Source: Chromera velia
Taxonomy: Eukaryota > Sar > Chromeraceae
Assembly (NCBI GenBank): GCA_018398765.1
Contig: JAHBMJ010000900.1
Span: 1 to 20,000, forward strand
Length of the DNA stretch: 20,000 bases
Direction of reading: 5' to 3'
Shown here: positions 1 to 20,000 of the stretch, piece by piece
Layout: each line of letters starts with the position of its first letter
Numbering within the stretch: position 1 is the stretch's first letter
The notes under the pieces: generated by a model
Databases searched by the model: none
Seen by the model: the letters and a program-made list of their open reading frames with translations, nothing else
What the model was told of the DNA's origin: nothing
Position numbers and translations under genes: made by a program

Positions 1-1
1 C

Positions 2-61
<60 letters not shown>

Positions 62-66
62 GTGTT
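1..66. repeat. Composite (CT)n(TG)n microsatellite
   Basis: A run of CT dinucleotides passes directly into TG dinucleotides with one CG interruption. The array begins at or before the window edge. The same CT-then-TG order recurs near 8300 and 18663. Confidence 0.97.
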
Positions 67-893: not shown

Positions 894-993
894 ATCAAAG
901 GAAGAAGAAATTGCAGGGTCCGTGACATTTCTGCCTTTGCGGCCTTGCGGGTGGTCTCGGTTGTCTGTATCCTTAGGGGCTTGTCTCCTCAGG
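894..993 (-). other. 5' part of exon 2 of the membrane-protein gene
   Basis: This stretch is the leader of the exon carrying the 615-893 reading frame. On the minus strand an acceptor reading ttttcag ends at 994, so the exon would start at 993. Codons are open in the frame of the downstream ATG (LRRQAPKDTDNRDHPQGRKG), so it is either 5' UTR or extra N-terminal coding. A short out-of-frame ATG occurs about 30 nt before the start. Confidence 0.4.
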
Positions 994-1090
994 CTGAAAA
1001 GGCAACACTTCGCTGTCGATCGTCAAAATTTGGTTCCGCGTAACCAACGTGGAAAACAGGGGTTCGATGAAACAATGACTTTAGACTTAC
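994..1090 (-). other. Predicted 97-nt intron of the minus-strand gene
   Basis: Read on the minus strand, the donor is acg|gtaagt at 1090 and the acceptor is ttttcag at 994. This donor matches the canonical eukaryotic consensus, unlike most donors of the plus-strand gene in the window. Confidence 0.5.
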
Positions 1091-1156
1091 CGTCTTTGTG
1101 GCAATCCTCTTGTGAACGTACTGTGAAATTGTGACACGCACTTCTAAATCCTTCAT
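1091..1156 (-). other. Candidate first exon of the minus-strand gene
   Basis: An ATG at 1156 opens 22 codons (MKDLEVRVTISQYVHKRIAT...) that end exactly at the gtaagt donor in phase 0. With the best acceptor (993) the joined frame hits a stop, so the exon may be 5' UTR. With a weaker AAG acceptor near 975 it joins in frame to DTDNRDHPQGRKG and the membrane protein. Transcript data would decide. Confidence 0.35.
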
Positions 1157-1827: not shown

Positions 1828-1920
1828 ATGGACGAGCCGCGAGTCCCATTCCTCCGCCTCCAATTCGACGAGAGACTCGGGTTCCACTCGCAGGACATCT
1901 CCGCCGCTGCAGCTGCCCTG
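1828..1920 (+). CDS. WD40 gene exon 1 (start codon)
   Basis: The ATG at 1828 follows an in-frame TAA directly, so no longer start exists in this exon. It encodes 31 residues beginning MDEPRVPFLRLQFDERLGF and ending in an alanine run. The donor is ctg|gtcagt in phase 0, at the first copy of a GTCA array. Intron 1 (616 nt) holds that array and no other clear exon. Confidence 0.65.
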
Positions 1921-1928
1921 GTCAGTTC

Positions 1929-1959
<31 letters not shown>

Positions 1960-4900
1960 AGTCACTTAGCGAGTCAGTCAGTCAATTTATCGGAAATTCA
2001 AGCAGTCAATCACTTTTATCACTACGTCTACTTACCTCCATCAGCAGCGCTATCCCTGCTCTTGCACTCTTTGATGGTGAATTGCACTTTTCTTCTTTCA
2101 GGAGCCTCCTGGTAGTGAGTTCACCTCCCTTCTTCAATGGAGCACTTCTCACTTTGTCTTCCGCAATTTGCACTTCTTTCCGTGCCCTATCTCTGTTCTC
2201 TCATTATTTTACGACACGCATTCGTTTGTTGTCCACTGCTATGCGCACTGCGCGCGCGGTCTTCGGATAGTTGAGATCAGCAAAGCCGCCCCCAATGCAC
2301 GATTCACTTCCCTCCTACCAACCTTGCTCTCGCCTGTCCACCCCCTCTCCGCCTGGCTTGCTGACATCCCTGCCCCCACTTCGTCTGGCTTTCCATTTTG
2401 GTCGCTGTGTCGAAAGACCATCGGGCTTTTTGCCTCCAAACTGAGTGGCCTGCTTGTCAAGTGGTTTCTTTCTTTCTCGCACTAGATGACCCCTCCTTTC
2501 ACTTGACGCCTTTCCTTTTGAACCTTCTGTCTGCAGAAGGCCCACCTCTTCCTGACCTCAGACCTCTGGGAGCTGAAGCTCTGGTCAGTAGCCGGGGGCA
2601 TACTTGGTTGGTAATTTTTGCTTCCACATCAGGCATGAATGAATGAATGAAAGGAGGAAAGAAAGAAGCAAGAGGCTTTGAACAACACCATGGAGAATTT
2701 TTGATTCTTTCTGGCAGCAGGGATCTCGATTAATACACAGAAATGGCAGCAGGGATCTTGATTAATACACATGCAGAAATGGCAAAAAGAACGGAAGAAT
2801 GAACAGCAACGAGGACTGTCTAAGTAGCGGGATGGTATGCACCCCAAAAAAGCACACAAGCACAAAATGCAACATTCATTCCCGTATGTCCTTACATATG
2901 CCTGCAGGGATGTGGACTCAAGGGCCCTTCTCTGCACACGGGCAACGTTCTCCGGTGAGCAGCAGAAGGAGGCTGAGAGGGAGAAGGCAGCCACGGGAAA
3001 GAGCACCTTCGAAGTCAAGCCGCCCATCGCGAGGCCACTCGTGTCAGTCAGTGAAGAACGCAGTCACGCATTCTGTTTTTCTTTCTACCTCTACAGAACT
3101 GCATCCAACCTGTTTAGCGACACACCCTTCTCTAAGGGTTCCTTCTAGCCCCCTATACCCCCGACCCGCCCCCCCTTTACTGCACGTGAATGTGTGGTGT
3201 CTTTTACCGTCTGCCCCTTCAAGCAGTCTTTACGTTTCTTTGTGCTCTTCAGAAGTTTCGGTTTCTGTGCCTTTGCATCAGCACTTATACCCGCCTCCCT
3301 GACCATGCGCAAATCGGCCCAGACGAAAACCGGGATCTACTATCTCTTGATGCCTGTCTTTGCAAAAGTGTTTCCTTATCGTTGCTTTGGTCTTTGTCCT
3401 TCAATGCGCAGAGGGAAGAAGGGCCAACCTGATCTCGGGCCTGTCTGGCTTCTACGGTTCCTCTCTGCCTGCAATTGCTGGTCCGTCTAGCTGTCTGTCT
3501 TTTGCGAGTCCCAGTCTGCCTGTCGCCCTACACTGATCATTCTTCCAAAGAAAACCCCTTTTTTGTTTTCGTCATTTCAGAACTCTTATGCATGCAGGCC
3601 TTGGGTGTTCTTTGTTTGTTTGGTGCAGCTAGCTGCCTTTTTTCTATGGGATGTCTCTCCCAGCCACCCTGTTTTAATAACACCACTGTTCTTATTTGCT
3701 ATCCACGAGCTCTTTCTGGTCCCTTTCTTCCTCTGACCTCGCACTTTTCCTGTCAGACAGAGGGGTATGGCACGTAGTCGGAGCAAGTGTCTGACCAATG
3801 AGTTTTTCGTTATCTGCCTCTCCGTTTGCCAGTCTGTATGTTTGCGTTTTCATCGGTCCCCCTCAATTGGATGGGTGAGCGCGCGTACCTCTCTCTCTGC
3901 AGGGTTGCTGTGGACTCCTCGTATAACCTGAGGCTCCTCTCTCTGCGCGACCTCTCTGTAGAAGCCACCTTCTACCCTCTCTGCTCAGTCGCTAACATGC
4001 GGCATGTCAGTCAGGCAGCACTTGTCATTGTGTCAGGGTGTGTGTGTGATTGTACTAAAAAAGGAGGCAAACAAGGAAGCAAACCAAGAGGGTCGAGCTG
4101 CAGATGTGAAAATGGGAATTGGCCGTTTGAAAAGAATTTGAGTCAGAAGAGGCAGCAGCGCGTCCTGCATCAATCTACCCTCAAGGAGATTCAGGGAGAG
4201 AAAGCGGATCTCGATTCTTCTGCACACATCCATCGAGACGGACGGAGAGAGTAAACGGAAGCACGGATGGATAGACATCATTTCGTCTGTTATGAAAGGG
4301 AGACAACCGTTCTATCCAAAGCCTTGCCACTTCGGCACTCTCTCTCTGCACCAAGAGCCGGGACACATGCATTCTTTTGGTCCAGACAGCAATTTTACTT
4401 TGATTGGTATTCCCCTGTGCAAAAATTAGCCTTGAATCCTTCAGCAAGACAGACTTTCTGCTGCCCACTGGATCTCCATCCGTTTTTAAAATGTCAAATT
4501 TGTCTGCGTATGTGCAAATCTGCATGTGCAGCTGATTTCTGCCCACAGCGCCGCCATGAAAGCAGGAAGCGGGAAGAAAGATGAAGATGAGACTGAGGCG
4601 GGAGGGGAGGAGGAATTGGGAGACGGAGCCTCAAGTTCCAGAGGTGTACCACGGAGGCACACGGTGGTTTCCCGACGCGCTTCCGTCACTCCGTCACTCC
4701 AGGTGCCAGGCAACCGACGCGCTTCAGTCGGCACCGCACTGACACCCCCCGCCACTCCCCGCCCTGCACCCCGGATTCTCGATGTTTGCGTGTTTCAGCA
4801 TAGGGCAGAAGTGGCTTGTGCTTTCGACTCCAGACAGATAGTCATCTGGGGGTGTGCACGCACGCACGGAAGGGGAGGAGATGGAGCGGAGGGGGCCGCC

Positions 4901-5547
4901 GTCGTGTCACGTCTCAGTGGAAATGCAGAGGAAAAGGCAAAACGTCCGTCAGCTGCATGTCTGCTGAAAGTTTCATTCATTGGGCTTCCCGCGCAAATTC
5001 GAATTCCGAGACATCCAACCAAAATGTGATGGCACTGGAACTTGTGTGAGTTCGTCTGTAGATGCATCGTCTTTGTGCGCCCCTCAAGGCTTCTATGCAC
5101 TTTTTTGAAATGTAAAGGGATCGCCGAAGTTGAGAAAGAGAACCGAAAGTGTCAATTACCCAAGAGACCTGCGTATTCAGACCGGTTCAGAAGAGTTTTC
5201 TCACTTACGCATAATTGCATGGATGGATTCGCTCGCAAAGGAACCAATATCAATGCCAAAGTGAGTGACACAAAAAGAGCAGAATCGAATCCGTGAGGCA
5301 ATGGATGATTGGCTCAGCGATCGCCTCACTGACAGAAGAAATGAAAGGAGAAACGAAAGACTGCACATCCATTTATGCAGATCTCCTCTCGCCAGGAAGA
5401 GAAAAGGAAGTGTCGGGAGACGAGGGTGAGATCATTTTGAGTCCCTCTGTCTGTGTGGAGGTCGAGAGAGAGAAGGGAGTCGTCGAGACCCTCAGCGCTG
5501 TGGAATTTCATGATGTCCTCGTCGGTCGGTTGGTTGGTTGGTCTCTC

Positions 5548-5578
<31 letters not shown>

Positions 5579-8300
5579 TTCTTCCTACTTTTCTGGCTGC
5601 TTGCGGGCCTTTTCCTCTTCGCCCGCAGGTTCCCTTCTGCCCCTCGAAAGCCCATTGGTCTGTAGGAATGTTTGTCTACGTGTCCATTGTCTGCGTTTCG
5701 GATTTTGCTGTTTTCTTCTTGTTTGATTTTGTGGTCAAAAGTTTTCCTTTACCTTCGGACGACTGGATGTGCGATTGCGATCGGTCTTCGACAGTCTTTT
5801 CCCGTGCATTTTGTCAATGTGTCTCCAAACTCTTCGCATACTCACGTTGTATTACTTACAAACAACCCATAACACGGATGATTGAATTTCAACGAGGATT
5901 GAGAGCTCACCTCAGCACTGGAAAGTATGTTGAAAGACAAAAACATACGTACGCGTACACGCACGACCATATATACAGACAGCCGCACTAACAGGGTAAA
6001 CAAAGAAAAGCAGAAAGAGGGATAAAAGGCGAGACAGATAATAAAAGAAAGGGGGAGAGAGACAGAGAGAATGACTCAAAACATGTGCCGACTGCGTTGT
6101 CTTTGCAGGTGTGACCGACTTCTCTGAATGCCTCTTGTGGAATGTCGTCGGTCAGTGTGAAGTAGTTGACGACCGCTGTCTGTGTACCGTCTGTCTGTCT
6201 TTTTCTTTCCTTTTCTTCATTCCTTCCCGCTCCGCTGAGTGCAGTGTCTGCAGAGTCCCCCCTCCCTCCCTCCCTCTCTCCCTCTCTTGCCCCTCTTTCC
6301 CCTCCGATGGGAAGACCGGGGGGATACGTGATTCAGTCGAGCGCCTCTTTTTTTGTGTCGTTCTGCACGTCCCTTCTCCTCAATTTCACTCATCGCCTTT
6401 GTTTTTGTTTTGCCTCTTCACTGCACTGCACTGCCTATCCTGCGTTGACTCATTCACACGCTCCCTGTGTGCTTCTTATCCTTTCTCTGGGTGAGAGAGA
6501 ACGTACGCAGATGGTGCGCTGCTGAGGGAGTTTTCTGTTCCGGCAGCTCATGAAGTGCTCTCCACAGACTCGACTTTGCACATGGTCAGACAGAGATGCA
6601 CACGCAAAGACTGGGAGAAAAAGTGGTTGACACACCGATAGAAACTCACACAGACAAAGGAACAGGCAGAAAGGCAGATCGATGAGAGAGAAAGGCAGAG
6701 AGAGGAAAACAAGACAAAGAAAGAAAGAAAGAAAGAAAGAAAGAAGGAAAGAAAGAAAGGAAGGAAGGAAGGAAGGAAGGACGAGAGAAAGACAAGCACG
6801 CAGACTGTGACTGAAGATAGAGGAAGAGAGAGACCGAGAGAGTGGAGAGTGAAAGAGACAAAAACAAGAACACAAAAAGTCAGAAAGCCAGACGGACTCA
6901 GCAGAGCCTGACAGGCAGGCAGGCATGCACGGGGGGGGAATCAACTCCTGTGCAGACGCGTCAATTGGTTCTGGTGTGCAGCCATGCAGCTAAATCTGCT
7001 CAGATCTTGTCTTGTACTCCTTCTTTGTTCTGCAGGCGTTTCTCATTATCTCATCTCATCGTAGGCTTCCAATTAACTCTCCCTGTCTTCACTGATGAGT
7101 CTCTTGGCCTGCTGCTGCCTGCCTGCCTCCCTGTTTGCCTACAGGCTTTCAAATGCATCGACGGAGACATCCACACCTTTCGGTTCTGGCATGGTGACGA
7201 CGGTCAGTCAGCCAGTCGCTTTACTGAAGTCTGTGGATCCGTCATCATGAGCCATTCACTCGAATTCTCTGTTTACATTGGTCACCGTACAAGAAACTGT
7301 CAACGGGACACACACCTGTTCATCCACAGCTCTGCTGGTTTGTTTTCCTATCAAGTCCACAAGGAGTCTCTTCTCAGTTAGCTTTCCTTTGCGTGTCTAT
7401 CATGTGCCACAAAATCGAAAACGACGACCCTCGTTTGTTTGTTTGTCCCTGCAGTTCGTCACCAGGGGCGAGTACCGAGAGTGTGCACAGAGGCATTAGA
7501 GCTCGCCAAGCAGATGAGGGGGCGGGCACGGACACTCCAAATGGTTGGAGATTCGGTTCTGCCCTCCACGGGAGGTCTCAAGGGTCAGTGAGTGAGTGAG
7601 TGGGTGGGTGAGTGAGTTGATGCATGAGGAGGTGGAATTAAAGGCGCACATTCATATCTGCACGTCTGTTCGAATGAGTGTTGAAGACATCTCTGCCCCA
7701 TGCATGTTGTGCGTCCATTCATTTATCTGAAATAGTTTACGAAAATCTTGGCGTCACCCTTCGAGATCATTACATCTCGCTGGATCCATTAATGAAACTT
7801 CGTGTTGCCCTCCTTTCCTCTCTCGCAGGTTCCTCGCACAGTTTTCTTTTGGATGAGAGGAGGCTTGAATCGAGTGGGTGGGTCTGTGGACCTCGTTGTG
7901 TTTGGTCTTTGCTTCTTTTTTTTTTTTCTTTTTCTTTCTTTCTTTCTTTATCTATTTATTTGTTTCTCTCTCTCCCCCCCCCCCCCCCCTCTCTCTCTCT
8001 CTCTCACACACATACACACACACTGTGTCAGCTCCTGTGTGTTTGCAGTCGTGTATCTGTCCTTAGTGCCGCACAGCCTTCTTCTGCCTTTTCATTCACT
8101 TAAGTGTTGCTTATGCAGAAACCACTTGATTTCTTCTCACCTAAACAGACTTCGGTTTTTGTTCGTTCGATAGAGTGCTGATATGAGGAGACAGTCAATG
8201 TTATGAGAGGGATCTGCCTTGATGTCAGTTTCTTGCCTTTCTGCATTGCCTTTTTCTCTCCCTCTCCCTCTCCCTCTCCCTCCCTTCCTCTTCTTCTTCT

Positions 8301-8332
<32 letters not shown>

Positions 8333-11300
8333 TGTGTGTGTTTATGTTTGTGTGTGAAGTGCAGTTCTGTTTGAAGAGCCAAAATTTGGAGCCTACCTTC
8401 TTGCCTTGTCGAGTCAGTCTCCCTCTCTCTCTCCCTCTCCGTCGCTCTTTCTGTCTCTGTATGGAACTCTTCCCCTTTCGTCCGCCCACACTGCCAGAAA
8501 GAGATTGAATCCACCCATTGACTTTCCAGCATGCACGATCCTTACAGATCAAACAAACAGCATCTCCTTTGTGGAGTCGCAGCATCCACGAACCCCCTTT
8601 GGCCATTTATTCCTTCCCGCCATACTTCTTTGGTTTTCAACCTCCCACTCCTTGCTCACCATCTAACTTCTCTTTGATTCCCTTCTTTGCGCCTGCAGCT
8701 GATGGTGTGGTGTCAAGTATGAATGCGGCAAAAGGCGTTGTGCTGGACGCCTTCAGACTGCAAGAGCAGGTCGCGCTCCTGCAGGGAGAAGACAATTGGC
8801 CTCCATTCAAGGGACCGTTCGGTGAGCATCCATCTGTCTGTCTGTCTGTCTGTCTGCCTGCCTGCCTGCCTGCCTGTCTGTGTGTGTCACTGTCTGGATA
8901 TATGCTTGTTATGCTTCCTTTCTCGCTGGGACTTGGTGGCTCCAGCGCATCTCCCTTCTTGCAACCTCACAGCCTTAGGCTGTCTGTCAGTTTTGTGGAG
9001 AAGCAAGGGTTGTTGCAGAAAATTCAATAATTTACCCACTGACGTCCTCAATTTCTCTTGGTGTCATGCGTCTCTCTGTGGAGTCATCTTGCGAATGCAC
9101 GCCCTTCTCTTGCTCTTACCAAATCGTATTTTGTGCTTTCAGGAGTACGTCGCCCTCCATTTCAGCGCCTTGCCCTTTTTGCAAAGGAAAAAGAAAAACC
9201 CGGCACCGCAGCGCAAGGCCGGCAGAGGGGGCAGACGCCAGGGGACCATCAGGTCTCCTCTGGGGGGGTGGCAGGGAACTACTCCACTTTGATGATTGCA
9301 TTTCGGCACCAGGTGCTGAAGCTGCGTGTAAGTTCACGGGTGGGGTGCCGGACGAAAGGGAGCCTTGGGTGATGGGTGGTCGACAGGGTCGGAACTTTTG
9401 GTGACCAAAGCTTGCTCCCTCTCTTGAGTGTCTGTTTTTCTCCTTTTGTTCGCAAGGAACCTTTGTCTGCCTGTATATCTTTCTGTTTTTCTTTCTTGCT
9501 CCATCCATTTGCTTCTCTGAGTGTCTGCTTGTCCGTGTGTGTGCATGTGCAGGTATGCGCATTGGCCGAAGACTTCTTCCACCTCGAGGCCATCCCGACC
9601 TCACTCCAGAGATGTGTGCTTCCGGCACCGCGCCTAGGGTGGGTCTCCCTCTCTCCCTCTCTCTCCGTCTGTCTCTTGAATTTTTCTGTCTTCTCCTCTC
9701 ATCCTCCGCATGCTACTGTAGATTTTCTTCTCAGGCTCTGACTGACTCGCTGCAACGGAAAGCGGTTGAATAGATTTCAGAAAGTCCGCAAGCTGCTGCT
9801 GTTGCATGAAATCTTGGCTCTTTGTTTCAACTTCAGTCTTTGGTTTTGTTTTTTTGCCGTAGGAATGAAAAAGGGGGCCCTGACGTACATCTTTTGTATG
9901 TTTGCTATTCCCTAATTTTGTTTTGTAGGTCTGATTGATTCACACACGAAGTGACGCATTTCCTTTTACTCAGCACTTGGCATCCTTTCCTCCCAACCCT
10001 TCACTTCATTCAAAGGTGTCTTTTCTCTTTCTTTCTTGTGCTTGACTGACTGCCTGTCTGCAGATTCCCTCTCACCGGGCCTTTGGGCCATGCTGTTGTG
10101 GCCTGGTTTACGGGATCAAGTCAGTCACCTCAGGGAAGATGTTTTGAATGCATGGGGCATGCGTGCTGTGGGTGGGTGTGCGTATCTGTCTGTCTATCTA
10201 GGTCCGAACAGGACAAAGCGTCTGCAGAACGCAAAACGGTCTGCAGTGAAGGTTGTGCCCTGAGAATTGTTTGCGCATCTGTGTGTGTGCGTGTGTGTGT
10301 GCATGTCTGTGTGTTTTCTCTCTCTCTGTGTGCAGACATGCTCGGTCTTGTCGGTGTCCGGCCCCCCATAACGGGAGATGAGTACTGTCTGACAGAGTAC
10401 ACAGACGCATACGACAGTCTGATTCGGAAAATGTCCATTGACGGCCCCGGAAAGAAGCGAGGAGGGCAGAAAAAGAACAACTTCTTTCTTTCTTTTTGTG
10501 ACACAATCACAGCCACGCGTTCGCGCATCAAGTCTCACAGTCTTGTAGATAACAGCATCGGAATGTGTCTCCCTGACGACGGGCAATCGACTGGATCTGC
10601 CTTGGCGGGGGTTCTCCTGGGTTCACGTGCGGGGGCGGTGAGATTCTTTGACGACGATGAATTTGACGATCGGCTTCCGAGAGGCGTCGCGCCGTTTGGG
10701 GCCCATCACCAGTTGGAAGATAAGAAGAGCAGGGCGGTCGAGGTGGTAGCGTTGGACTTGGAGGCGGACTCTCTTGTGTGTGGGTTTGCAGACGGGGCGA
10801 TTGAGCTGTTTGAGCTTGTAGGGGGGCGACGGCGGTTCAAGGGAGGGGAGGAGGGAGAGGGAGGGGGGGGGGCCTTCGGGATGGGTCCGGCTGATAGCAC
10901 GGCAGACGAAGCTATAAGGGAACGGTGGGGGTTTGCAGCTCTGCAGGTGAGGTGCATGAAGGGGATCTTTTGCGGCTTTGCGGGAGTCTGTTCTGAGGTT
11001 TCTTTACTCCTTTAATGTTGCATCTTTTGCCTTGTTGTATCTTTTGCCTTTTCCCATTCGCACTCGCTTCTTTCTGCTGATTTACTGTCTCTTCTTTCTC
11101 TCCTTTTTTTTTCAGATTTTTATTTCTGTCCCTCCCTGTCTTCTTCCTTCTATCGGCTGTTTTACTCACTGCAGAGAGACATCACAAAGAGCCAATCAAT
11201 GGACAGATTCCGCAGAGAGTCCAACGACCCGGAAGGAGAAAAAAACGTCAAGAGAAGCCCCGTGCTTGCCTTCCATCTTCAAGCATCATCAGGTGTGTCA

Positions 11301-12193
11301 GACAGAACCTTCACGTCTGCATGTACACGCATGGTTCAATATCTAGTCAGATGGCTCTCACGTGTCCGTCTTATTACAAGAATGTTGCATCATGCAGTCT
11401 ATTTGCTCGTTGAGCTGTCGACTGAATCCTGAAGTATCCGACAGAAGACACGTCTGGTGCTGCTATGTTCTATGCAGTGAAAGCAGCAAAACTGAGTAGT
11501 TGCGCAAGTGTCCGCCTGTCCACACCCGTCTTGGCGGCCCGATTCCCTTGGGCGGTCACCCGCAGCATCTCCGAGGACGACTGCAAAGAGCTGAGCGAGG
11601 GAAACGACCTGTGGCCCCTTCCCGCCAGCTCGATGGTTTCCGCCTCTCTGGTCTTTGCGGGTTTTCAAATGGGCAGACTCGTCGGGTGGGTCTGTGCGGC
11701 TTTTGCACCCTCCGCTAGACGTCCCCAGGTCCCTTCTGGTTCTCCAGGGGGAGGGACTCTCTCTCCTTCGTCGAGACAGACTCCCGGGGTAGACGGGTCA
11801 GTGAGCCCAACAAGGAAGGTCAGATTGCGCAGACACGCCAGGAGAGTGTTGGATCTTTCCTGGTACATAGGTGTCACTGCAACCATCACGGAGGTTCGCG
11901 TGATTCCCAGAGACCCAGCCGACGGGATTTCGGACAAAACCCAGGCAGGGAACTGGGACTCTCGTGCCCCCCCTCTGCCGAATTTCGTCAACTCGGCGTG
12001 TGGCCTGATCGTCATGGCCTCCACCGGCATGGCCCGAATGTGGAGGGTGGTGGGGAATCTGCAGAGAAGTTTGGTTGGGTCCTCTCAGGCCGACTCTGTG
12101 GACCCTCAGGCAGACGCTGGGGTAACGAGTGTGGAGCTCCTCTGGCAGATTGACCTTCTGTCTACCGTGGCTGATGTGACGGTCAGTTGGTGG

Positions 12194-12228
<35 letters not shown>

Positions 12229-15200
12229 TTCGTTAACAAAGGATGAAGACCATGTGAGAAAGAAAGAGGCGGGAAGGTAAGGAGGAAAGAAAAAAACACT
12301 GGGTGGGACGTCATCGTATTAGCATCTTCTGCAGCCCATGCCTTTTTCTTGCGTAGTACCGATGGAGTGATTACTCGATAAAATTTCACCCGCTTGACTG
12401 GATTTGTCTGTTTTCTTCCCACTGCATCCATTTGCCTTTACGCCTGCCTGACCCCCTGCATATATGTTTGCACACAGACCACACGGAAGGCCAATCCGAA
12501 AGCCACCGCGTTCAACCTGGCGAGGCCCCACGCCTCTTTTTTCGCCGGGTTCTCCAACGGTGGCCTGAGGGTGGTCCGGATGGACAGAGAGAGAACAGGC
12601 CACGCTCGGAGATTCACATACGGCCCTCTGATGGAACTCCGGAAAAAAGCCCTGGAGAGAGCCGGCGCCCCAGGGGCACTCGCGCAGTCGTCCTCCATCA
12701 GAAAGCAGAGGACTGCAGGGGCACTTCTGGGGGTGGGGGGGTCTGAGATTTGGGGGGAGGACGCGGTGGGACTTCAGTGGATTGAGAGGGCCAGAGAGGT
12801 TCAGAGACAGCTTGTACAGGTCGTGCGATGTGCGTTCCATACAAACGAGGTCAGTCAATGGAATGGGCCTTCGCGCATTCAGTTTTGTCGACCTGTTCGA
12901 ACAGTCGTGTGGTGTCTTTCCCTTTCCATTTTCTCTTTTCTTGGAGTCCCTTCACTGTCTTTGACCTGTTTGTGTTGCTTTGTTTTTGAAATATTTAAAC
13001 GATAGTCAAAAAAGGCGGCCCAGTGGCCTGCTCGGTCGATCGCTTTCGATTTGAAGTGGCGCGTCTTCGTTTTCTACTCTTTCGCCGAATTTCCGTATTT
13101 GCGTGCCTTTGAGCGTCCAAAGTTTCTGCAGACCCTCCGCGTGCGTCAACATGCCGAAGCACTTCCTTGTCGGTGCCATCTGGCAGAACTATCTTCTGAA
13201 GGTCTTCGGGCATCGACTAAGTTCTACAAACTGTTTTGTTTCTTCGCTTCCTTCTTCTTGCCTGCCTGCAGGTTTTGGCTGTCGATCCCCATCCCGCCCG
13301 TGCCCTCTTCCTCTCTTGCTCCTCCAGACAGGTCGGAGTCTGGCCGTTCCCCCCCCCAGACGGGAGGGGCCCTGCCGAGATCGTACCCTTGAGGTGCGTT
13401 TCCTTCCTTGAGGAAATCAGATCCCTCGTTGCAGTCGGGAGCGCAGAGCAGCCGGGGGCACTGATTCTGTGTCCAACCAACGGGACCCTCAGGCTTCTGA
13501 ATCTGTCCCTGATGCCTGTTCAGGGAAAGAGCCAACCGACAGAAGATGTAGAGGCAGGAAATCTAATAGCGTTGGAGTCGAGATTCCAACAGATGCGCGC
13601 AGAGGACCCAAAGGACCCAACAAATGCAGTGGGAGGGCGGAGGTTCTCTCACCTGAGTGATGGCCGGAGGGTGTCCACTTCTGAAGGTACCCGATTAAGG
13701 CGGTCATCCATCGATAGCGCCAGCGCAGTTCTGCCAGGCGGCGCCCGAATTTACAAGAAGACTGCGTTAGGATCCAACGCTCGACACCAACTGCACTCAG
13801 TTGGAGCGGGGTCTAGAGATGAGTTGCAGGGAGGAAGAGGAGTGCCGTTATCTATTTCGTTGTCCATGCGTCTTCGAGAGGAGGGACAACGAGGCCGAAT
13901 GGGAGAGGAAGGTCCCCCCTCGCCCTCAAAAAGAAGGCTGTCTGTGAGACTTCAGGGCGAACCCGAGGATTTCGCTAAGCCTGCAAGAAGGAACTCTCTG
14001 CTTCTGCAACCAGGGACACAACTAAAGCCCCTGCCTGCACCTAGTGACTCCACCACCCCTTATGCCCTGCGAGTGGAATTGCCAGCCCGAAAGGAGGACA
14101 CCCTGGCTGTACCTCTGCAAACAACAATTATCCCCGCAGGCACCCCCCTTGCAGCCACAGCGGTGGGAGACGACGAGATCTCGCCTGTGAAGTCTCTCTC
14201 AGAAGCATTCAAAGGGAAGGAAAAGGAGCAAGAAGGCCTCAAAAAGTTTGGACATCTAGCATCCAGGCCTCACTCTCCTGCCTCCTTGCAGGCGTTCGGA
14301 TCCCCCAGTCCCCGGCCGGGCTCCCCCTTTAACTACACACAACGCTCAGAGGGGTCTGTGCAGCTTCAGAGTCCAAAACCCGGACCGATCCATCCGAGAG
14401 ACGCCATGGGAGAACTCAGACCTGTACTGCAAAAGATTGCCAGAGAAAACAATCCTTTGCTAAGCCTCGCACTTGGAGAAATCAAAAGATACAGGTCCAA
14501 GTCTGCAAAGCGCAGAAGTGACCAAGGCCACGGGTCCCCCTCCTCTGACCCAGAGGAAAGGAGAGGAAGAAGAAAAAGCCCAACAAGGGCACAAAAAGCC
14601 CCCCAGTCTCTCTTGGAAGTCTTCCCGATGTTTGCCATTTCGTACTGTGCAAAAGAGAAGCTTTCACGAATGGGAGGGCAACATCTGGGCGAAAGCTCTC
14701 TCCCCAAGCTCACCACTCCCATCAAGAAAGAACTCATGATGCACACAGGACACCAATGCACCCCTGAACCCCCTCCCATCCCCATCCGCACTGACCCTTT
14801 CGAAGTCCCCCCTCCCACCCCCCCACAGCCACCGGCTGAAGGAGGCGAAGGATCATTAAACCTCACATTTGAATCTGCTGTTCAACCACCCGATCCTGCT
14901 GCTGGTTCCCCTTCCCCTGTGAATCAGAACCAGAAAGGCAAGAAGTCTTGCAGAACAACTCTCTCCCCCGCCCGCAGATGGCCCCGCACAGATTGCGTGT
15001 CTCCGGGAAGAAGGACCCTCGAGGACCCATCGTCCCCCTTTCGCCCAGTGCCCTCAAAGTCCGAGGTCGCACTTGCGGATTTCTTTCGGTCTGCACGCCT
15101 CGATTTCATTCGGGGGGCTGCAGGAGGGCTGGGAAGGGACAAAGGCCAACACGCCCGCGCACACGCACGGTCTCTGGTCGACCTCTCAGGGTGTTACAGG

Positions 15201-18200
15201 GAGCCGGATAGCTTTGCTGTGCTGTCAGGAAGTGGAGGCGTGGGGGGGACAGAAACACTGCCTCGGGAGAAGAGGGAGGGTGGGGCTTTGGACAGTGTTG
15301 CCAAAAAGGGGAAGGGAAAGGGGAAGAGTGGAGTAACTTCTTTCAAAAGAGGACGCCCACTGTGGCCCCCAAGACGGCCTCGGAAGGCGATTCCTCCTCT
15401 CTTCCCCCCCCCACAGGTCACTGCCGCAGTGTCTGTAGGGGCACAGGCTGAGTTTCCTCCCATTGATTTTTCAGACACAGAGACCAGCACAGACGGACGA
15501 AGTCCCAACAGAACGACAAAAAGTTTCCTGCCCTCCCTTGACAACGACATTGAACCCAAAGTGACAACCCAGAAGGACGTCGCTGTAATGGTCCAAGATG
15601 CCTCGGATGGCCCCCCTCCTACGGGAGAATCGGGACATTCCGAAGCCCCCGTGAGGTCCAACAAGAGGACTCTTCAGATTCAGAGTCCTCCAAAAAGCCC
15701 ATCAAAACTCACCTCCCCAGGAGGTGTCAGAAGTGAGTCTGCTCCCTGTAAACCCAGACCCGATGGCTCTTCAGCAAAAGCCGGTCCGCCCCTTCTCTCT
15801 TTTCGAGGTCCAGGTGGGACAGTTTTGAGTTTCCGTCCCGTCTCCAGACCGTCCAAGGAAGGTTTGCCGTCTCCGACTTCTCCCCACTCTCGCATTCTCC
15901 CCGCATCGCCCTCAAGTCAGGGCCCCCTCTCTCCTTCCTCTGAACGAATCAAACAGCTGTCCTCTCCTACCGGAGATCTGTCACCCGTCTCAGGACGTCT
16001 CCGCACTCCCGCAGAACTGTTTCCGACAGGCAAAAGGTCACTTTCCCCTTCCTCTTCATCTCCAGGACGGCCAAACACAGTGGGAGACTGGGGGATGGGA
16101 GGTAACAACGAGGTTACGTCAGATGACGAGAAAGCATTTCGTCCTTTCTGCACCTGGGCAGATTCAGGAGACGGTTTTCTGAAAGGGGACAAGCAACATG
16201 AAGACTTCATATCACACATGATGGCACAGACGGGCACTCTGCCATTTCCAAGATCTCCCTCAAGGCACACAGATGGGGCTTCAGATAGAAGAAGATCCCG
16301 ACACAACTACAGAAGAAAGTCAACAAAAAAAGAAAGGCCAAAAGAACACCCACAGCTGACAGTCAGCAAAACTGCAGATCTGCCGATGCAAGAACGTGTA
16401 TTTCCTTCCCCCCCTTCCTCCGTTGCACATTCTCTGTCACCCTGTGCGGTATCACCAGCACGAGAGAAGCCCGATGCCTCCCCAGCCGTCTCATCCGCCA
16501 GATCCCGAGACCAGATCCGACTCACCCCACGGCCAGGCAATTACGGTCTTCCAGATGCGGTCGACAGAGATCTTTCGGACAACGCCCCGAGCCCCTTCAT
16601 GAAAACCAAACGACAAAAGGGAAAGGGAAGTGAGCACGTGGTGCCCCGTCTGGATCTTCAGGGTCTCCGGAAAGGCATAGGGAAGTACCGGTCTCAGGGG
16701 ATGGACAAGAAGGCAACATCCCTCCTTCCTCTTGAGTATCAAGCGCTCTATGGATCGTCCCTAGGGGCTCCTAGTGCGATGAATCAGATGCTTCCGCCTC
16801 AGTCTCGCCATTTGGATCCACGTCGGTGTGTGAGCTCAAGGACAGAGCGGGGCAGAGGAGATGTGGATGACATTCGACGAGAGCAACTGCAAGCACACGA
16901 CTCTCCCCCTGTTGATGTGATACCCAAGTTGTACAAAACCGCTTTCCGGGCCCCTCAAGATTTGCTGAAAAGGGTTGAAGGCAGGAGTGCCACGTGGTTC
17001 CCAACGACCCCGACTGTGCCTCCAGCCCTGCCGAACAGACCCCCGAAGCCGATTCCCATTGACTTACCAGAGGAACACGACCCCTCTCGAGTCCTCTCAG
17101 AAAAGGGAACCAAAAGGGCTGAAGAGGGCTCTCGAAGGGAACACATCCCGCAAGAAGAAGAACAAGAACAGGACGCTGCGATGGTGGCCCGACTTCAGGC
17201 AATCGAGGGAGGGGTCCTCCGTGTGTCTCTCCTTCTTGAGAGTCTTCTTGATGCAGACCGAGCACAGATTGCCATGGCGGCTGTCAGACTTGAAGCCGAT
17301 CCTTTCCGGCCCATTTTGCCTTCCGCTATTGGGATCATTCAAGCGTCAGACCCCCACTACACCCATGAAGCCTCTGCTCACGTCAGTGCTCCTTCACATG
17401 AGATCATTTCAAAGCGGCAACAGCCGAGGGAAGATACAGAGGCATCAGGCGGAAAAGTCAAGGAGGCAGAGGGAGACTTGCCCATGCAGCCTCGAGCGAA
17501 AGAGGACCGAAAGGCCCAAACCCATCCCCTCTACTTTACAGCAGGTGACGGTCAGATAGAATCCCTCCTTCGCACCCTCAGAGGAAGAAGGGTAGACGTT
17601 CGTCAAGAGGAAGAGGAAGACATCCACACGCCCAAATTGCGTCCACGGACCCCTCTTACAGCAGCTGCAGAGAGAGACGGCCTCACTGGTCGGACTGACG
17701 GGACATCTACTGTGCGTATCGGGGGGGGGGCAATTAAGAGTGCTCTCTGCTGGGTGAAGGAGTCCCTTGCTCGTCCAGAGGCCGCCTGTCGCATCGGGTC
17801 TCCCACTCGGAACCCCGGAAGGCCGCCTACCCGATGTGAACAGCGTCCCGGGGCTGCAGAGGGGGACGATGACCTTGCACTCAGCCACAGACGTGCATAT
17901 GGAATTAGGGGAGCCCGCCCGTCCACTCCCCATAAAGAAGGAGAGGACGCGGAACAGCCAGACCCAGGCGCTGCGGGTGATCACACATATGTCAAAAGGC
18001 CCCGGACACCTGTTGCATTTCCGATTCTGGGTCAGAGGATTACACCCAGACCGTTGGGAGTGGCCGGAACCCGATCGCCCATACCCGCCCGTCTTCCTTA
18101 TGGGTGGAAAGAGGCAGCGGCAGCAGGTCGGTTAGGACCCTCTCAAAGTTCTCCCGAGCTAACAACTGTAGGAGGTTTTGTGATTCTAGGCCAGCCTCAA

Positions 18201-18659
18201 TACGACAAAGAAGGCCTTCGTGTAGAGGGACGGTCACCCCCCCCTTCTCGCGAAGGGATTCGGCAGCCTTCCCGGCACGACGAGAAACAACTGCAGATGA
18301 GGGCACGAAGGGAGGCTGTGCTGGAACTTTTGGGACTTCAAGAGAGAACGTTGAAGAGACACTGGGCCCGGCACATAGGGAAGAAGGGACTCATGCCTGA
18401 GGGCCTGTTCAAGTCAGCCTTTGCATCATTCCTCAGTGATTTTCTGTACCCGTCTCTCAAGAAAGTTCCTTCTTGTTCTTGAATCCCTGGTGTGGCCGGC
18501 CCTTATCTTTCTTTCTTCTTTCCTTGTTCCCTAGCTGTCCCTGTCCGAGGCATCCGACTTCCTTGCGGGTGGGTGTCTGTACTTCCTGTTTCCTGTTTTC
18601 ATTCGGCTTCCCGACCTCATGCTTCCATTTTGCGGAGATGTTCTTTCTCCTTCTGCACT

Positions 18660-18702
<43 letters not shown>

Positions 18703-18703
18703 C

Positions 18704-18736
<33 letters not shown>

Positions 18737-19710
18737 TCCGCCTCTATTCATTGTTTTTCTTTCATCTCTGGTCCACTACTCTTTGGGGTACCGAGGATCC
18801 GTTCTGTGTGCATCATTCAACTGGATACTAGTTCGTCTGTTCAACATTATACTTCTGCTCAAGTATCCTATTTTCCTTTCTGGTTTTCCTCGTTGACCTT
18901 CGACTGCTGTTGCATGACGCACGCACGCAGATTCTTTCGAGACCTGGTTGAGGACGGCATCAAACGAAGTCGCAGAGCTGAACAGATTCGACAGCAAAGA
19001 AGGCGAAAGAGAGCCTTGCAACAACAGCAACAAGAAACGCAACACGAAACCAAATCCAGAGACAACAGATCGACTGCGTCCCCATCCCCCTCACCCAGAC
19101 GATGTCACACCCGGACACGAAGAAAGAGCCCCATATCTCCAGGAGGGAGACGGCGAGACGAATCCGAATCCTTCAGTCCTCGCAGAGACGCCACGGGCTC
19201 TCCTACTGGATCGACGGCAGATGACCATCCTGCTGTCGAGCTAGCCGAAGTGCTCGAGGCACTTATTATTGGACTACACTCTCGTCTCCAGAGAAACCCG
19301 GCGGCCGTCCTGGCAGAGATCGGGGTTCCGTTGGATGGCAGTGGGGAGGCGGCTGCCCAGTCTGCTGCGTGTCTGGTTGAATTGTTGGACGAGTTGACTG
19401 AAAGACTTCGGAAGGTGGCATCAAAAAGGAAGTGGCGGGCTCGAGTTGAGGGTCTGCATTCTGATGAAGAGTTGAGTGGAGACGATGGTCTGTGGAGGGA
19501 TGGAATGTCAAAGCTTGTAGATGATGAGGACGGGGAGGGTGGAAAGTTTTTTCTGGGCCTCCCGAGAGATTCTGGAGGGGAGGAAGGATCGCCTGTCAGT
19601 TTTTTGCTCTTCTGCCCTCAGCTTGAAAGAACACTGTCTGGACTTTCTAGTTGTGATCCTTCACGAATATTTCTTAGCTGCCTTTTTTGAATTTTCTTTC
19701 TTTCTTCCCT

Positions 19711-19773
<63 letters not shown>

Positions 19774-20000
19774 CTCCGGTCTTTCCTCATGGGGGCCATG
19801 ACACGTTCAATCTTTGCCTGTCACTCTCACATTGCCAATCTTCTGCAGCGCTTCAAAAGCCTTCCGAGCAGTCCATTGAGAGGCCGCAGTGCTGTCCTGG
19901 ATCTTCTTGCCGACAGTATGGTCGAGTCCATTCGACGTCCTGCCACGGACGAGGAGGTCCAGTTGCACATTCGAGTCATAGGCACCCGCATAGGCATGGA
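1828..20000 (+). CDS. Giant multi-exon WD40-repeat scaffold protein (3' partial)
   Basis: One gene fills the rest of the window. My exon chain is 1828-1920, 2537-2583, 2908-3042, 3412-3480, 3903-4005, 4532-4943, 5381-5425, 6109-6150, 6547-6584, 7145-7202, 7455-7583, 7829-7873, 8699-8821, 9143-9327, 9553-9638, 10064-10119, 10336-10946, 11175-11292, 11478-12181, 12478-12849, 13006-13034, 13132-13201, 13272-18451, 18931-19594, 19849 to beyond 20000. Phases agree at all junctions, giving at least 3,188 codons. Residues 30-1270 hold WD40-like strands (for example LFLTSDLWELKLWDVDS, ALFLSCSSRQVGVWPF), enough for about two propellers. Residues ~1280-2860 are Ser/Pro/Arg-rich and probably disordered. 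Residues ~2866-2940 form a helical module, then a Gln/Arg-rich helix and an acidic tail. No enzyme motif, signal peptide or membrane segment is evident. The architecture fits a cytoplasmic scaffold, perhaps ciliary; the family is not recognised. Small exons are tentative. Confidence 0.75.
1921..1984 (+). repeat. (GTCA)n array overlapping the intron 1 donor
   Basis: About a dozen copies of gtca/gtct-type tetramers start exactly at the exon 1 donor, so the 5' splice-site hexamer gtcagt is repeated many times in tandem inside the intron. Confidence 0.9.
2537..2583 (+). CDS. WD40 gene exon 2
   Basis: The exon is flanked by ctgtctgcag and gtcagt. It encodes KAHLFLTSDLWELKL plus two bases of a Trp codon, a typical end-of-blade WD40 strand, and joins exon 3 to read LKLWDVDS. 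The frame was chosen because both neighbours fit it in phase. The following intron 2 (324 nt) contains a tandem duplication at 2713-2780. Confidence 0.65.
2713..2780 (+). repeat. Two-copy tandem duplication inside intron 2
   Basis: A 32-base unit (2713-2744, beginning ggcagcagggatctcgatta) is followed immediately by a second copy (2745-2780) that differs by one C-to-T change and a 4-base insertion. Confidence 0.92.
2908..3042 (+). CDS. WD40 gene exon 3
   Basis: The exon follows cctgcag and completes the Trp of exon 2, then DVDSRALLCTRATFSG and a charged linker (EQQKEAEREKAATGKSTFEV). It ends at ctcgt|gtcagt. The sequence gtcagtcagtgaag offers three overlapping donors (exon ends 3042, 3046 or 3050); 3042 keeps phase with the WD40-like reading of exon 4. 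Intron 3 (369 nt) is pyrimidine-rich with no other supported exon. Confidence 0.6.
3412..3480 (+). CDS. WD40 gene exon 4
   Basis: The acceptor is aatgcgcag and the donor ctg|gtccgt. The chosen frame encodes GKKGQPDLGPVWLLRFLSAC plus NC, a strand that continues into exon 5 as a normal-length WD40 blade. Another frame (RRANLISGLSGFYGSS) is open and could pair with other splice choices. Intron 4 (422 nt) contains a possible 42-nt cassette exon at 3833-3874. Confidence 0.5.
3833..3874 (+). other. Possible 42-nt cassette exon in intron 4
   Basis: A good acceptor (gtttgccag) and donor (gtgagc) flank 42 nt, a multiple of three, that is phase-compatible with both neighbours (LYVCVFIGPPQLDG). Including it leaves only a 28-nt intron (3875-3902) before exon 5, which is very short for splicing, so I treat it as optional. 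Confidence 0.25.
3903..4005 (+). CDS. WD40 gene exon 5
   Basis: The acceptor is ctctctctgcag and the donor cat|gtcagtcagg in phase 0. It encodes VAVDSSYNLRLLSLRDLSV and EATFYPLCSVANMRH, which with exon 4 forms a complete WD40-like blade. Intron 5 (526 nt) shows no repeat array and no supported exon. Confidence 0.65.
4532..4943 (+). CDS. WD40 gene exon 6 with RRxS motifs
   Basis: The exon begins after catgtgcag in phase 0 (LISAHSAAMKAGSGKK), followed by an acidic/Gly-rich loop and a basic Ser/Thr loop with RRHTV, RRASVTP and RRASVGT. A WD40 strand pair follows (ILDVCVFQHRAEVACAFDSR, then QIVIWG). I place the donor at 4944 (gtccgt), which keeps phase with exon 7; gtgtgc at 4852 or gtgcac at 4854 are alternatives that would end the exon just after the WD motif. 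Intron 6 is 437 nt with no supported exon. Confidence 0.65.
5381..5425 (+). CDS. WD40 gene exon 7 (3' end ambiguous)
   Basis: The acceptor is atttatgcag. It encodes LLSPGREKEVSGDEG, ending at gagg|gtgaga in phase 1, so that exon 8 continues as VTDFSECLLWNV. The frame remains open through 5520, where a gtcggt donor would give a longer exon (EIILSPSVCVEVEREKG...) ending in phase 0. Intron 7 (683 nt) contains a TGTC array and a purine-rich block. Confidence 0.45.
5521..5577 (+). repeat. (GGTT)n(TGTC)n microsatellite in intron 7
   Basis: GGTT/GGTC tetramers pass through a short CT run into about seven TGTC copies, in the sense strand of the WD40 gene. Confidence 0.93.
6001..6072 (+). repeat. Purine-rich tract in intron 7
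   Basis: About 70 bases of almost only A and G (aaagaaaagcagaaagaggg and similar) lie shortly before the exon 8 acceptor, the opposite composition to most intronic repeats here. Confidence 0.75.
6109..6150 (+). CDS. WD40 gene exon 8
   Basis: This 42-nt exon lies between ctttgcag and gtcagt. It encodes VTDFSECLLWNVV, a WD40 d-strand ending in the usual Trp. Phase 1 at both ends. Intron 8 (396 nt) has a CCCT-rich block near 6261-6288 and no supported exon. Confidence 0.6.
6547..6584 (+). CDS. WD40 gene exon 9
   Basis: This 38-nt exon lies between ttccggcag and gtcaga. It continues exon 8 as AHEVLSTDSTLHM, completing a WD40-like strand pair. It ends in phase 0. Intron 9 (560 nt) holds a 300-base purine-rich block. 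Confidence 0.55.
6590..6905 (+). repeat. Purine-rich block with (AAAG)n(AAGG)n array in intron 9
   Basis: The sense strand is strongly A/G-biased for about 300 bases, with a perfect-looking tetranucleotide core at about 6715-6780. The complementary strand gives long Phe/Leu/Ser open frames that are artefacts of the repeat. Confidence 0.9.
7145..7202 (+). CDS. WD40 gene exon 10
   Basis: The acceptor is gcctacag and the donor gtcagtcagc. It encodes AFKCIDGDIHTFRFWHGDD, a clear WD40 strand with the aromatic end. It starts in phase 0 and ends in phase 1. Confidence 0.65.
7455..7583 (+). CDS. WD40 gene exon 11
   Basis: The acceptor is tccctgcag. It encodes RHQGRVPRVCTEALELAKQM and RGRARTLQMVGDSVLPSTGG. 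The donor gtcagt at 7584 is the first of several tandem donors (gtgagt copies follow every four bases). Phase 1 at both ends. Confidence 0.65.
7584..7618 (+). repeat. (GTGA)n array at the intron 11 donor
   Basis: The donor gtcagt runs straight into gtga/gtgg tetramers that regenerate gtgagt several times. Intron 11 otherwise holds no supported feature. Confidence 0.9.
7829..7873 (+). CDS. WD40 gene exon 12
   Basis: The acceptor is tctctcgcag. It encodes SSHSFLLDERRLES, ending at gtgggt in phase 1; another gtgggt four bases downstream gives a frame-changing alternative. Intron 12 (825 nt, the longest) contains two large microsatellite blocks. Confidence 0.55.
7911..8024 (+). repeat. T/C-rich compound microsatellite with a C16 run in intron 12
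   Basis: A poly-T stretch, TTTC tetramers, sixteen C residues (7974-7989), a CT run and CA repeats follow one another on the sense strand. Confidence 0.95.
8256..8343 (+). repeat. (CCCTCT)n(CTT)n(CT)n(TG)n microsatellite in intron 12
   Basis: Hexamer, trimer and dimer pyrimidine repeats lead into a TG run, in the same CT-then-TG order as arrays at 1-66 and 18663-18737. Confidence 0.95.
8699..8821 (+). CDS. WD40 gene exon 13
   Basis: The acceptor is gcgcctgcag and the donor ttcg|gtgagc. It encodes DGVVSSMNAAKGVVLDAFRL and QEQVALLQGEDNWPPFKGPF. Phase 1 at both ends. Intron 13 (321 nt) starts with a CTGT/CCTG array. Confidence 0.7.
8833..8888 (+). repeat. (CTGT)n(CCTG)n microsatellite in intron 13
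   Basis: About five CTGT copies are followed by about five CCTG copies and a short TG run. Confidence 0.95.
9143..9327 (+). CDS. WD40 gene exon 14
   Basis: The acceptor is gtgctttcag and the donor cgt|gtaagt, the only fully canonical GTAAGT donor in this gene. It encodes VRRPPFQRLALFAKEKEK, a Gln/Gly-rich loop, and NYSTLMIAFRHQVLKLR. It ends in phase 0. Confidence 0.7.
9553..9638 (+). CDS. WD40 gene exon 15
   Basis: The acceptor is gcatgtgcag and the donor gtgggt. It encodes VCALAEDFFHLEAIPTSLQR and CVLPAPRL, ending in phase 2. Intron 15 (425 nt) is T-rich with no supported exon. Confidence 0.65.
10064..10119 (+). CDS. WD40 gene exon 16
   Basis: The acceptor is ctgtctgcag and the donor gtcagtcacc. 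It encodes FPLTGPLGHAVVAWFTGS and joins exon 17 as a strand pair. The reading frame stays open past the donor, but the downstream sequence is a TG-rich intron. Confidence 0.65.
10278..10335 (+). repeat. (TG)n-rich tract before exon 17
   Basis: Interrupted TG repeats followed by a CT run lead into the exon 17 acceptor tgtgtgcag. Confidence 0.85.
10336..10946 (+). CDS. WD40 gene exon 17
   Basis: It encodes about 203 residues: MLGLVGVRPPITGDEYCLTE, a basic loop (PGKKRGGQKKNN), and two WD40-like strand sets (ALAGVLLGSRAGAVRFFDDD; VVALDLEADSLVCGFADGAI then ELFEL). A Gly/Glu loop encoded over a ten-G run (10863-10872) follows. The acceptor is tgtgcag and the donor cag|gtgagg in phase 0. Confidence 0.85.
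11175..11292 (+). CDS. WD40 gene exon 18
   Basis: The acceptor is tcactgcag and the donor gtgtgt. It encodes RDITKSQSMDRFRRESND, a charged linker and SPVLAFHLQASS, which begins a new WD40 blade. It starts in phase 0 and ends in phase 1. Confidence 0.7.
11478..12181 (+). CDS. WD40 gene exon 19
   Basis: It encodes about 234 residues with WD40-like segments MVSASLVFAGFQMGRLVGWV and SACGLIVMASTGMARMWRVV separated by Ser/Pro-rich loops (PSGSPGGGTLSPSSRQTPG). The acceptor is ttctatgcag and the donor acg|gtcagt in phase 0. Intron 19 starts with a GA run. Confidence 0.85.
12199..12224 (+). repeat. (GA)n microsatellite in intron 19
   Basis: An uninterrupted GA dinucleotide run close to the donor. 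It is one of the few purine-rich arrays on the sense strand. Confidence 0.95.
12478..12849 (+). CDS. WD40 gene exon 20
   Basis: It is 124 codons, phase 0 at both ends, between gcacacag and gtcagtcaat. It encodes a WD40 blade (PKATAFNLARPHASFFAGFS then NGGLRVVRMD), a basic helical stretch (LMELRKKALERAGAPG) and a strand (VQRQLVQVVRCAFHTNE). Confidence 0.82.
13006..13034 (+). CDS. WD40 gene exon 21 (tentative microexon)
   Basis: It is 29 nt after an unusual acceptor (aaacgatag), with donor gtcgat, encoding SKKAAQWPA. It is proposed because exon 20 ends in phase 0 whereas exon 22 needs phase 2, and this exon corrects the phase exactly. The frame stays open for another 80 codons, so other structures are possible. 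Confidence 0.35.
13132..13201 (+). CDS. WD40 gene exon 22
   Basis: The acceptor is tttctgcag and the donor aag|gtcttc. It encodes PSACVNMPKHFLVGAIWQNY and LLK, which run straight into exon 23 as a WD40 blade. The donor is weak, but the join is strongly protein-like. Intron 22 is only 70 nt. Confidence 0.55.
13272..18451 (+). CDS. WD40 gene exon 23: last WD40 blades and giant disordered region
   Basis: This single exon is about 1,726 codons. It starts after tgcctgcag with VLAVDPHPARALFLSCSSRQ then VGVWPF, and a second WD40-like segment (LILCPTNGTLRLLNLSL) near residue 1260. From about residue 1290 to 2860 it is Ser/Pro/Arg/Gly-rich, with five RRxS motifs (near residues 1313, 1322, 1333, 1410, 1429), many SP sites (SPPKSPSKLTSPGG), a Lys/Gly patch (KKGKGKGKSG) and proline runs. 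A helical segment begins near residue 2866 (RREAVLELLGLQERTLKRHW). I end the exon at cc|gtctct (18452) because it joins exon 24 as FLYPFFRDLVEDG; gtaccc at 18446 is the alternative. The frame otherwise stops at 18480-18482. Confidence 0.85.
18452..18930 (+). other. Intron 23
   Basis: It is a 479-nt pyrimidine-rich intron with the CT/TG array at 18663-18737. It contains the stop codon that ends the exon 23 frame, so the gene continues only if it is spliced. If it is retained, the protein ends just after SLKKVPSCS. Confidence 0.6.
18663..18737 (+). repeat. (CT)n(TG)n microsatellite in intron 23
   Basis: A CT run changes to TG repeats with a TCT interruption, in the same composite order as the arrays at 1-66 and near 8300. 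Confidence 0.96.
18931..19594 (+). CDS. WD40 gene exon 24: helical and acidic C-terminal region
   Basis: The acceptor is acgcacgcag and the donor cct|gtcagt in phase 0. It encodes FFRDLVEDGIKRSRRAEQIR, a Gln/Arg-rich helix (RRRKRALQQQQQE), a Ser/Arg loop (SPSPSPRRCHTRTRRKSP), a helical segment (VELAEVLEALIIGLHSRLQR) and another (AACLVELLDELTERLRKV). An acidic tail follows (HSDEELSGDDG, VDDEDGEGG). The leucine-rich helices could mediate dimerisation or partner binding. Confidence 0.8.
19711..19773 (+). repeat. (TGTC)n(TTTC)n microsatellite in intron 24
   Basis: About eight TGTC copies are followed by about seven TTTC copies inside the 254-nt intron 24. Confidence 0.95.
19849..20000 (+). CDS. 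WD40 gene exon 25 (runs off the window)
   Basis: The acceptor is atcttctgcag in phase 0. It encodes RFKSLPSSPLRGRSAVLDLL and ADSMVESIRRPATDEEVQLH, and is still open at the window end, so the C-terminus lies downstream. Confidence 0.75.

Follow-up and report, generated by a model that had tools for sequence, protein, structure and literature searches.

GTCAGT as the seemingly commonest intron donor of Chromera velia, alongside U1 and U6 snRNA genes of the usual sequence

GTCAGT seems to be the commonest start of an intron in Chromera velia. The window analysed here is a stretch of 20,000 nucleotides (contig JAHBMJ010000900.1 of assembly GCA_018398765.1, positions 1 to 20,000), and the genome searched comprises 177,833,721 bases in 4040 contigs. 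The window contains a long plus-strand gene of WD40-like appearance, and in the predicted introns the GTCAGT pattern of this gene extends beyond it, recurring in the gene for Prp8 and, to a lesser degree, elsewhere in the genome. In most eukaryotes a pyrimidine at the third intron base (+3) is infrequent, and the purine at this position is commonly taken to be required for pairing with the U1 small nuclear RNA (snRNA). Human sites have A or G at +3 (PMC4383343).

The exons of the window gene were placed by hand from the frame translations and by phase arithmetic, with GT-AG at every junction. On the plus strand the spliced frame stays open over 3108 codons and is interrupted by 20 GT-AG introns. 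At +3, 13 of the 20 donors have C, six have G, and one has A; ten donors are GTCAGT and one is GTAAGT. This agrees with the initial annotation, which reported that GTC-starting donors dominate the gene (17 of 24, with 11 GTCAGT and 1 GTAAGT), although there are four fewer donors in the present model. Between 1900 and 19620 the sense strand carries GTCAGT 26 times and the opposite strand 7 times, and part of this excess is tandem GTCA repeat.

The Prp8 gene was located via the Pfam domain PROCN, and a human PRPF8 reference sequence was aligned to it by a spliced protein-to-DNA aligner. The aligner accepts any GT and any AG, uses no position weights, and is thus blind to the motif. Identity reaches 1599 of 1938 aligned residues, and the alignment comprises 23 introns with no gap near any junction. 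The +3 base is C in 12 of these donors, G in 6, A in 4, and T in 1, and eight donors are GTCAGT. For 19 of the 23 junctions there is no alternative GT/AG pair of the same shift within 24 bases, and these unambiguous junctions have C in 9, G in 6, A in 3, and T in 1. When the window gene and Prp8 are pooled, 18 of the 43 donors are GTCAGT, and the purine of the usual GURAGU consensus at +3 is present, as A or G, in just 17, with T in 1. G at +5 is found in 42 and T at +6 in 36, while the GT and AG ends of all 43 introns were required by the models.

The other genes of the genome show the preference in weaker form. A supervised gene finder was kept uniform at +3 and +4, and its weights for G at +5, T at +6, and the acceptor were taken from the window gene and Prp8. 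On 17 other stretches it predicts 82 donors with a posterior above 0.5, which have C in 37, G in 18, A in 14, and T in 13 at +3, and the commonest hexamer is GTCAGT (14). There are 37 predicted genes, and nine of their proteins were submitted to Pfam, where eight are over the curated cut-off and one has no match. The supported set of ten genes comprises the eight Pfam-matched genes and two pieces of a DDX5-like helicase. Its 39 introns have C in 18, G in 11, A in 5, and T in 5, and the 67 introns of the remaining predicted genes have C in 31 and A, T, and G in 12 each. One all-N stretch is left out of the counts, as are predicted introns that lack a GT start because the end of a stretch cuts them. 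The weaker excess of C occurs in sets that contain false introns. References for DDX5 and the E. coli pyrophosphatase, run through the same aligner as Prp8, give 13 junctions, many of them poor, and C is the commonest +3 state in every donor set except these few junctions. The raw excess of GT hexamers (GTGAGT 1.63-fold, GTCAGT 1.17-fold) is not decisive, and an initial neutral model for the window lacked strength, with 15.2 expected donors, C at 0.40 and G at 0.32 for +3, and 2.05 for GTCAGT.

Composition alone fails to explain the donor pattern. The sense strand of the introns has 187 internal GTNNGT sites, with G in 80, C in 68, T in 31, and A in 8 at +3. The pair CA at +3/+4 is found in 20 of 40 donors (17 of the window gene, without those at 4854, 5525, and 6147, and 23 of Prp8) versus 14 of 181 internal sites, which are dominated by the units GT (57) and CT (44) (p=2e-12). 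Compared with the same internal sites, CA is found in 9/23 donors of Prp8 (p=2e-4), 8/39 of the supported set (p=0.03), and 16/67 of the other predicted genes (p=0.002). C alone at +3 is found in 25 of 42 donors, a set that leaves out only the window donor 4854, versus 68/187 internally (p=0.003), and the ratio of C to T is 23:1 in the 40 donors versus 68:31 (p=0.003). A at +4 accompanies C in 20 of 23 donors versus 5 of 17 donors with another base at +3 (p=3e-4). In the introns as modelled, a purine at +3 is thus dispensable, and C at this position comes with A at +4 and a near-invariant G at +5.

Tetranucleotide slippage offers a different origin for the same hexamer. According to this explanation, a donor GTNNGT seeds (GTNN)n inside the intron, the C mirrors the commonest repeat units of a repeat-rich genome, and +3 is unconstrained. 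GT recurs in 34 of the 40 introns at +5, in 16 at +9, and in 11 at +13, with 0 to 2 at the other offsets to +16. The +3+4 pair is repeated at +7+8 in 14/40 versus 6.2 expected (p=5e-5), and the lag-4 match is highest in the first 24 intron bases (0.53, compared to 0.37 in intron interiors and 0.26 in coding sequence). Donors in which GT recurs at +9 have C at +3 more often (13 of 16) than those in which it does not (10 of 24), and C is already the base at +3 in 68 of the 187 internal sites. Slippage probably shapes the intron ends. As the explanation of the donor preference it is on the unlikely side, because GTCAGT persists in 8 of the 24 donors without GT at +9, and because CA is just a minor unit of the internal sites, where GT and CT prevail. 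Arrays of GTCA, GTTG, GTGA, and CTGT/CTGC start at or just past the donor at 1921-1970, 5525-5580, 7584-7616, and 8822-8880. The acceptor motif is an unusually rigid (TGCN)TGCAG. In the window gene and Prp8 combined, 31 of the 43 introns end in TGCAG; 34/40 have T at -5, 34/40 have G at -4, and T occurs every 4 bases to about -21.

The snRNA genes are of the usual kind. The Rfam search for U1 gives one full-length copy over the cut-off (79.3 bits, contig C723) and two weaker ones, and a DNA search finds U1 at five places in the genome. Two of these five copies are without a 5′ end, and the three that retain one all read ACTTACC, so the base facing +3 is U; no copy with G facing +3 is found among these three. 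The changed U1 that the initial annotation had offered, with G opposite +3, is not supported by these ends. Its other reading, a lineage rule in which +4 to +6 compensate, is supported by the counts of A at +4, G at +5, and T at +6 given above and by the recurrence of the pattern in Prp8 and, less strongly, elsewhere, and neither U6 nor period-4 repeats figured in either reading. The truncated or diverged U1 copies (stretches L038, L039, L040, and L041) look like pseudogenes. All seven U6 copies over the cut-off contain ACAGAG, and one has T next. U1 and U6 genes of canonical sequence are thus present, in keeping with introns of the major (U2-type) class, and C at +3 of the commonest donor exists alongside G at position 44 of U6 in 7/7 copies. 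An SNRNP27 gene is present, and one gene of the LUC7 family was found.

U at +6 pairs with A41 of U6. In human numbering, G at +5 pairs with U6 C42, A at +4 faces N6-methyladenosine 43 (m6A43), and +3 contacts G44 in later complexes, according to PMC9803359. Through this contact a Watson-Crick pair with G44 is open to C at +3 but not to A, with the loss of one U1 pair. It is tentatively proposed, at somewhat less than an even chance, that the major spliceosome of this lineage uses GTCAGT as its commonest donor with the usual U1 and U6, and that U6 commits the site more than U1 does. The mismatch of C with base 6 of U1 would be tolerated because +5, +6, and the exon end would supply enough U1 pairs. 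C would then be kept for its Watson-Crick pair with G44, beside the contacts of +4A with A43, +5G with C42, and +6U with A41, and commitment to the donor would come from U6 more than from U1.

The exon side of the donors bears on this proposal. If C at +3 were merely a flaw in the pairing with U1, stronger exon ends would be expected. AG before the cut is found in 5 of 44 CA donors versus 35 of 104 others (stratified p=0.002 over four sets), so in the pooled sets the CA donors would resemble the U6-type class, unlike weak sites that are rescued by the exon. The presence of an SNRNP27 gene and of a match to the METTL16 family also counts in favour of the proposal. A tolerance on the U1 side, where the U1C, LUC7, or U1 pseudouridine of the lineage accepts C at +3, C arises by drift, and U6 is no selector, is improbable. 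The single LUC7-family gene fits it, U1C is reported to tune the affinity for mismatched sites (PMC4383343), and pseudouridine reportedly stabilises pairs, also with C (PMC3950712). However, U should pass like C under such a tolerance, and T is found at +3 in 1 of the 43 fixed donors, a scarcity that is unrepeated in the predicted sets; the U1 duplex energies are about equally poor for C (-7.8 kcal/mol) and U (-8.0 kcal/mol). PMC4383343 also describes U1C as making no base contacts. It is very improbable that the genome holds an overlooked U1 with G opposite +3. Long runs of N in some stretches, a possibly incomplete assembly, and scoring confined to the best 41 of 2442 candidates speak for one, but ACTTACC is shared by all three copies with a 5′ end, including the full-length one over the Rfam cut-off. 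Faulty exon models with donors chosen by motif are scarcely credible as the source of the pattern. The window gene does have hand-placed donors and no clear homologue as a check, but the Prp8 junctions are blind to the motif and have no gap nearby in an alignment of high identity.

Several results weigh against a general GTCAGT preference selected by U6. All introns and donors, in all sets, are predictions from genomic DNA. The DDX5 and pyrophosphatase junctions with at least 4/10 identities on both sides (n=7) have C in 2, G in 3, A in 1, and T in 1, where the T lies about 6 kb past the matching exons and is probably spurious. An unsupervised finder with a uniform start, run on 17 stretches together with the contig of the window, never settled on a donor motif, and its last round gives A 0.09, C 0.20, G 0.39, and T 0.32 at +3. 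Compared with the internal GTNNGT sites, C alone is not significant in the separate sets (Prp8 12/23, p=0.13; supported, p=0.24; other, p=0.10). The C:T ratios of the predicted sets (18:5 and 31:12) do not differ from the background, and T is undepleted in them (5/39 and 12/67). Taken by themselves, the two fixed genes show the exon-side effect weakly (p=0.056 for CA, p=0.044 for C at +3), and for C at +3 over all four sets it is absent (p=0.31). The nearest-neighbour duplex with U6 (ViennaRNA) leaves C at +3 unrewarded, with -0.1 versus -1.4 for GTAAGT, in a different register, and period-4 slippage accounts for part of the donor pattern. The genome has a match to Methyltransf_10 (PF05971), the family of METTL16 and also of bacterial enzymes, which matches 5 of 14 prokaryote controls too.

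The GUAUGU donor of Saccharomyces cerevisiae has a U at +4 that mismatches U1. It resembles the donor described here in having one position that pairs with U6, and differs in that the U6-pairing base is +4U, compared to C at +3 with A at +4 here (PMC9803359). In two fission yeasts, Schizosaccharomyces cryophilus and S. octosporus, the intron of the telomerase RNA starts with GUCAGU, the identical hexamer, and there too an additional G:C pair with U6 at +3 and the loss of a U1 pair have been proposed. In contrast to its status as the commonest donor of the modelled protein genes here, it is rare in those two fission yeasts (3/5,702 and 1/5,350 introns, respectively). GUCAGU impedes the second step in the fission-yeast telomerase RNA, and a C-to-A change lets the spliced form accumulate. 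In the actin intron of budding yeast the second step is unblocked by GUCAGU, and in another intron an A-to-C change affects assembly or the first step. These differing outcomes, all reported in PMC4299874, indicate that the effect of GUCAGU depends on context.

A wider and unlikely reading is that the whole lineage has shifted the choice of the 5′ splice site away from U1 and towards U6. Its commonest donor would be a hexamer that, in the fission-yeast telomerase RNA, holds U6 too tightly and hinders the second step. The spliceosome would then need compensating changes, perhaps in Prp8 or another step-two factor, so that splicing can be completed from a donor locked onto U6. In the window gene and Prp8, introns with C at +3 show no stronger acceptor that might offset a slow second step (TGCAG in 16/25 versus 15/18, p=0.38).

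Among donor classes, the CA donors are similar to the U6-type NN//GURAG class, as opposed to the U5-type AG//GUNNN, in their strength at +4/+5 and, in the pooled sets only (p=0.056 in the two fixed genes), in their weaker exon ends; they have C in place of the +3 purine (PMC11732430 and PMC9803359). Amoebophrya is likewise an alveolate that departs from the usual intron signals. In that lineage it is reported that U1 was undetected and that >60% of introns lack GT-AG, whereas here U1 is present and the introns are modelled as GT-AG (PMC7789003). The introns of Chromera velia are described as larger than those of Vitrella (PMC4501334). Among the titles and abstracts listed by searches of the open-access literature, no description of GTCAGT as a common donor in any lineage was found.

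The introns of the window gene are listed in Table 1. Its product is WD40-like by eye (LKLW joined to DVDS, ALFLSCSSRQVGVW), and Pfam finds WD40 only at E=0.17 in the first 1231 of its 3108 residues. A PDB search with one exon and Pfam searches with three exons and with 1231 of the 3108 residues did not name the gene and gave no clear homologue. The region 13272-18412 is a single exon of 5.1 kb with a long low-complexity region that is probably disordered. For intron 7, the phase-compatible donors at 6147 and 6144 both have C at +3, and a GTCAGT at 6151 was rejected because its phase disagrees with that of the following exon, which starts at 7145. Window positions 1-1150 comprise, by eye, a small membrane-protein-like gene on the minus strand with one short intron, head to head with the WD40-like gene; the normal gtaagt noted there by the initial annotation is seen again at 1090. 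Elsewhere the genome holds 11 matches to the IMCp (alveolin) domain, a family that matches Caulobacter too, and the predicted proteins include three with plastid-like leaders (by eye) and one with a CFAP61 domain.

Table 1. Modelled features of the window, with the donor and phase of each intron.
Feature	Position	Strand	Donor	Phase	Remark	Basis
Intron 1	1921..2536	+	GTCAGT	0		frames and phase
Intron 2	2584..2907	+	GTCAGT	2	split Trp codon links LKLW to DVDS	
Intron 3	3043..3902	+	GTCAGT	2		frames and phase
Intron 4	4006..4531	+	GTCAGT	0		frames and phase
Intron 5	4854..5380	+	GTGCAC		uncertain	phase compatibility alone
Intron 6	5525..6108	+	GTCGGT	1		frames and phase
Intron 7	6147..7144	+	GTCGGT	0	6144 GTCGTC fits too	
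Intron 8	7203..7454	+	GTCAGT	1		frames and phase
Intron 9	7584..7828	+	GTCAGT	1		frames and phase
Intron 10	7874..8698	+	GTGGGT	1		frames and phase
Intron 11	8822..9142	+	GTGAGC	1		frames and phase
Intron 12	9328..9552	+	GTAAGT	0		frames and phase
Intron 13	9639..10063	+	GTGGGT	2		frames and phase
Intron 14	10120..10335	+	GTCAGT	1		frames and phase
Intron 15	10947..11174	+	GTGAGG	0		frames and phase
Intron 16	11293..11477	+	GTGTGT	1		frames and phase
Intron 17	12182..12477	+	GTCAGT	0		frames and phase
Intron 18	12850..13271	+	GTCAGT	0		frames and phase
Intron 19	18413..18930	+	GTCAGC	2	alternative: frame stops at 18480-18482	
Intron 20	19595..19848	+	GTCAGT	0		frames and phase
Host gene	1828..20000	+			runs off right window edge; WD40-like, long low-complexity part	by eye
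Intron of neighbour gene	994..1090	-	GTAAGT			by eye

The preference for GTCAGT with an ordinary U1 suggests that U6 may read the donor more than usual in this lineage. Such genomes would be annotated wrongly by gene finders that have learned GTRAGT donors. The splicing field debates which of the two RNAs, U1 or U6, settles where the cut is made (PMC11732430), and a genome of ordinary U1 and U6, whose commonest donor breaks the rule and would pair better with U6, may serve as a natural test of this question.

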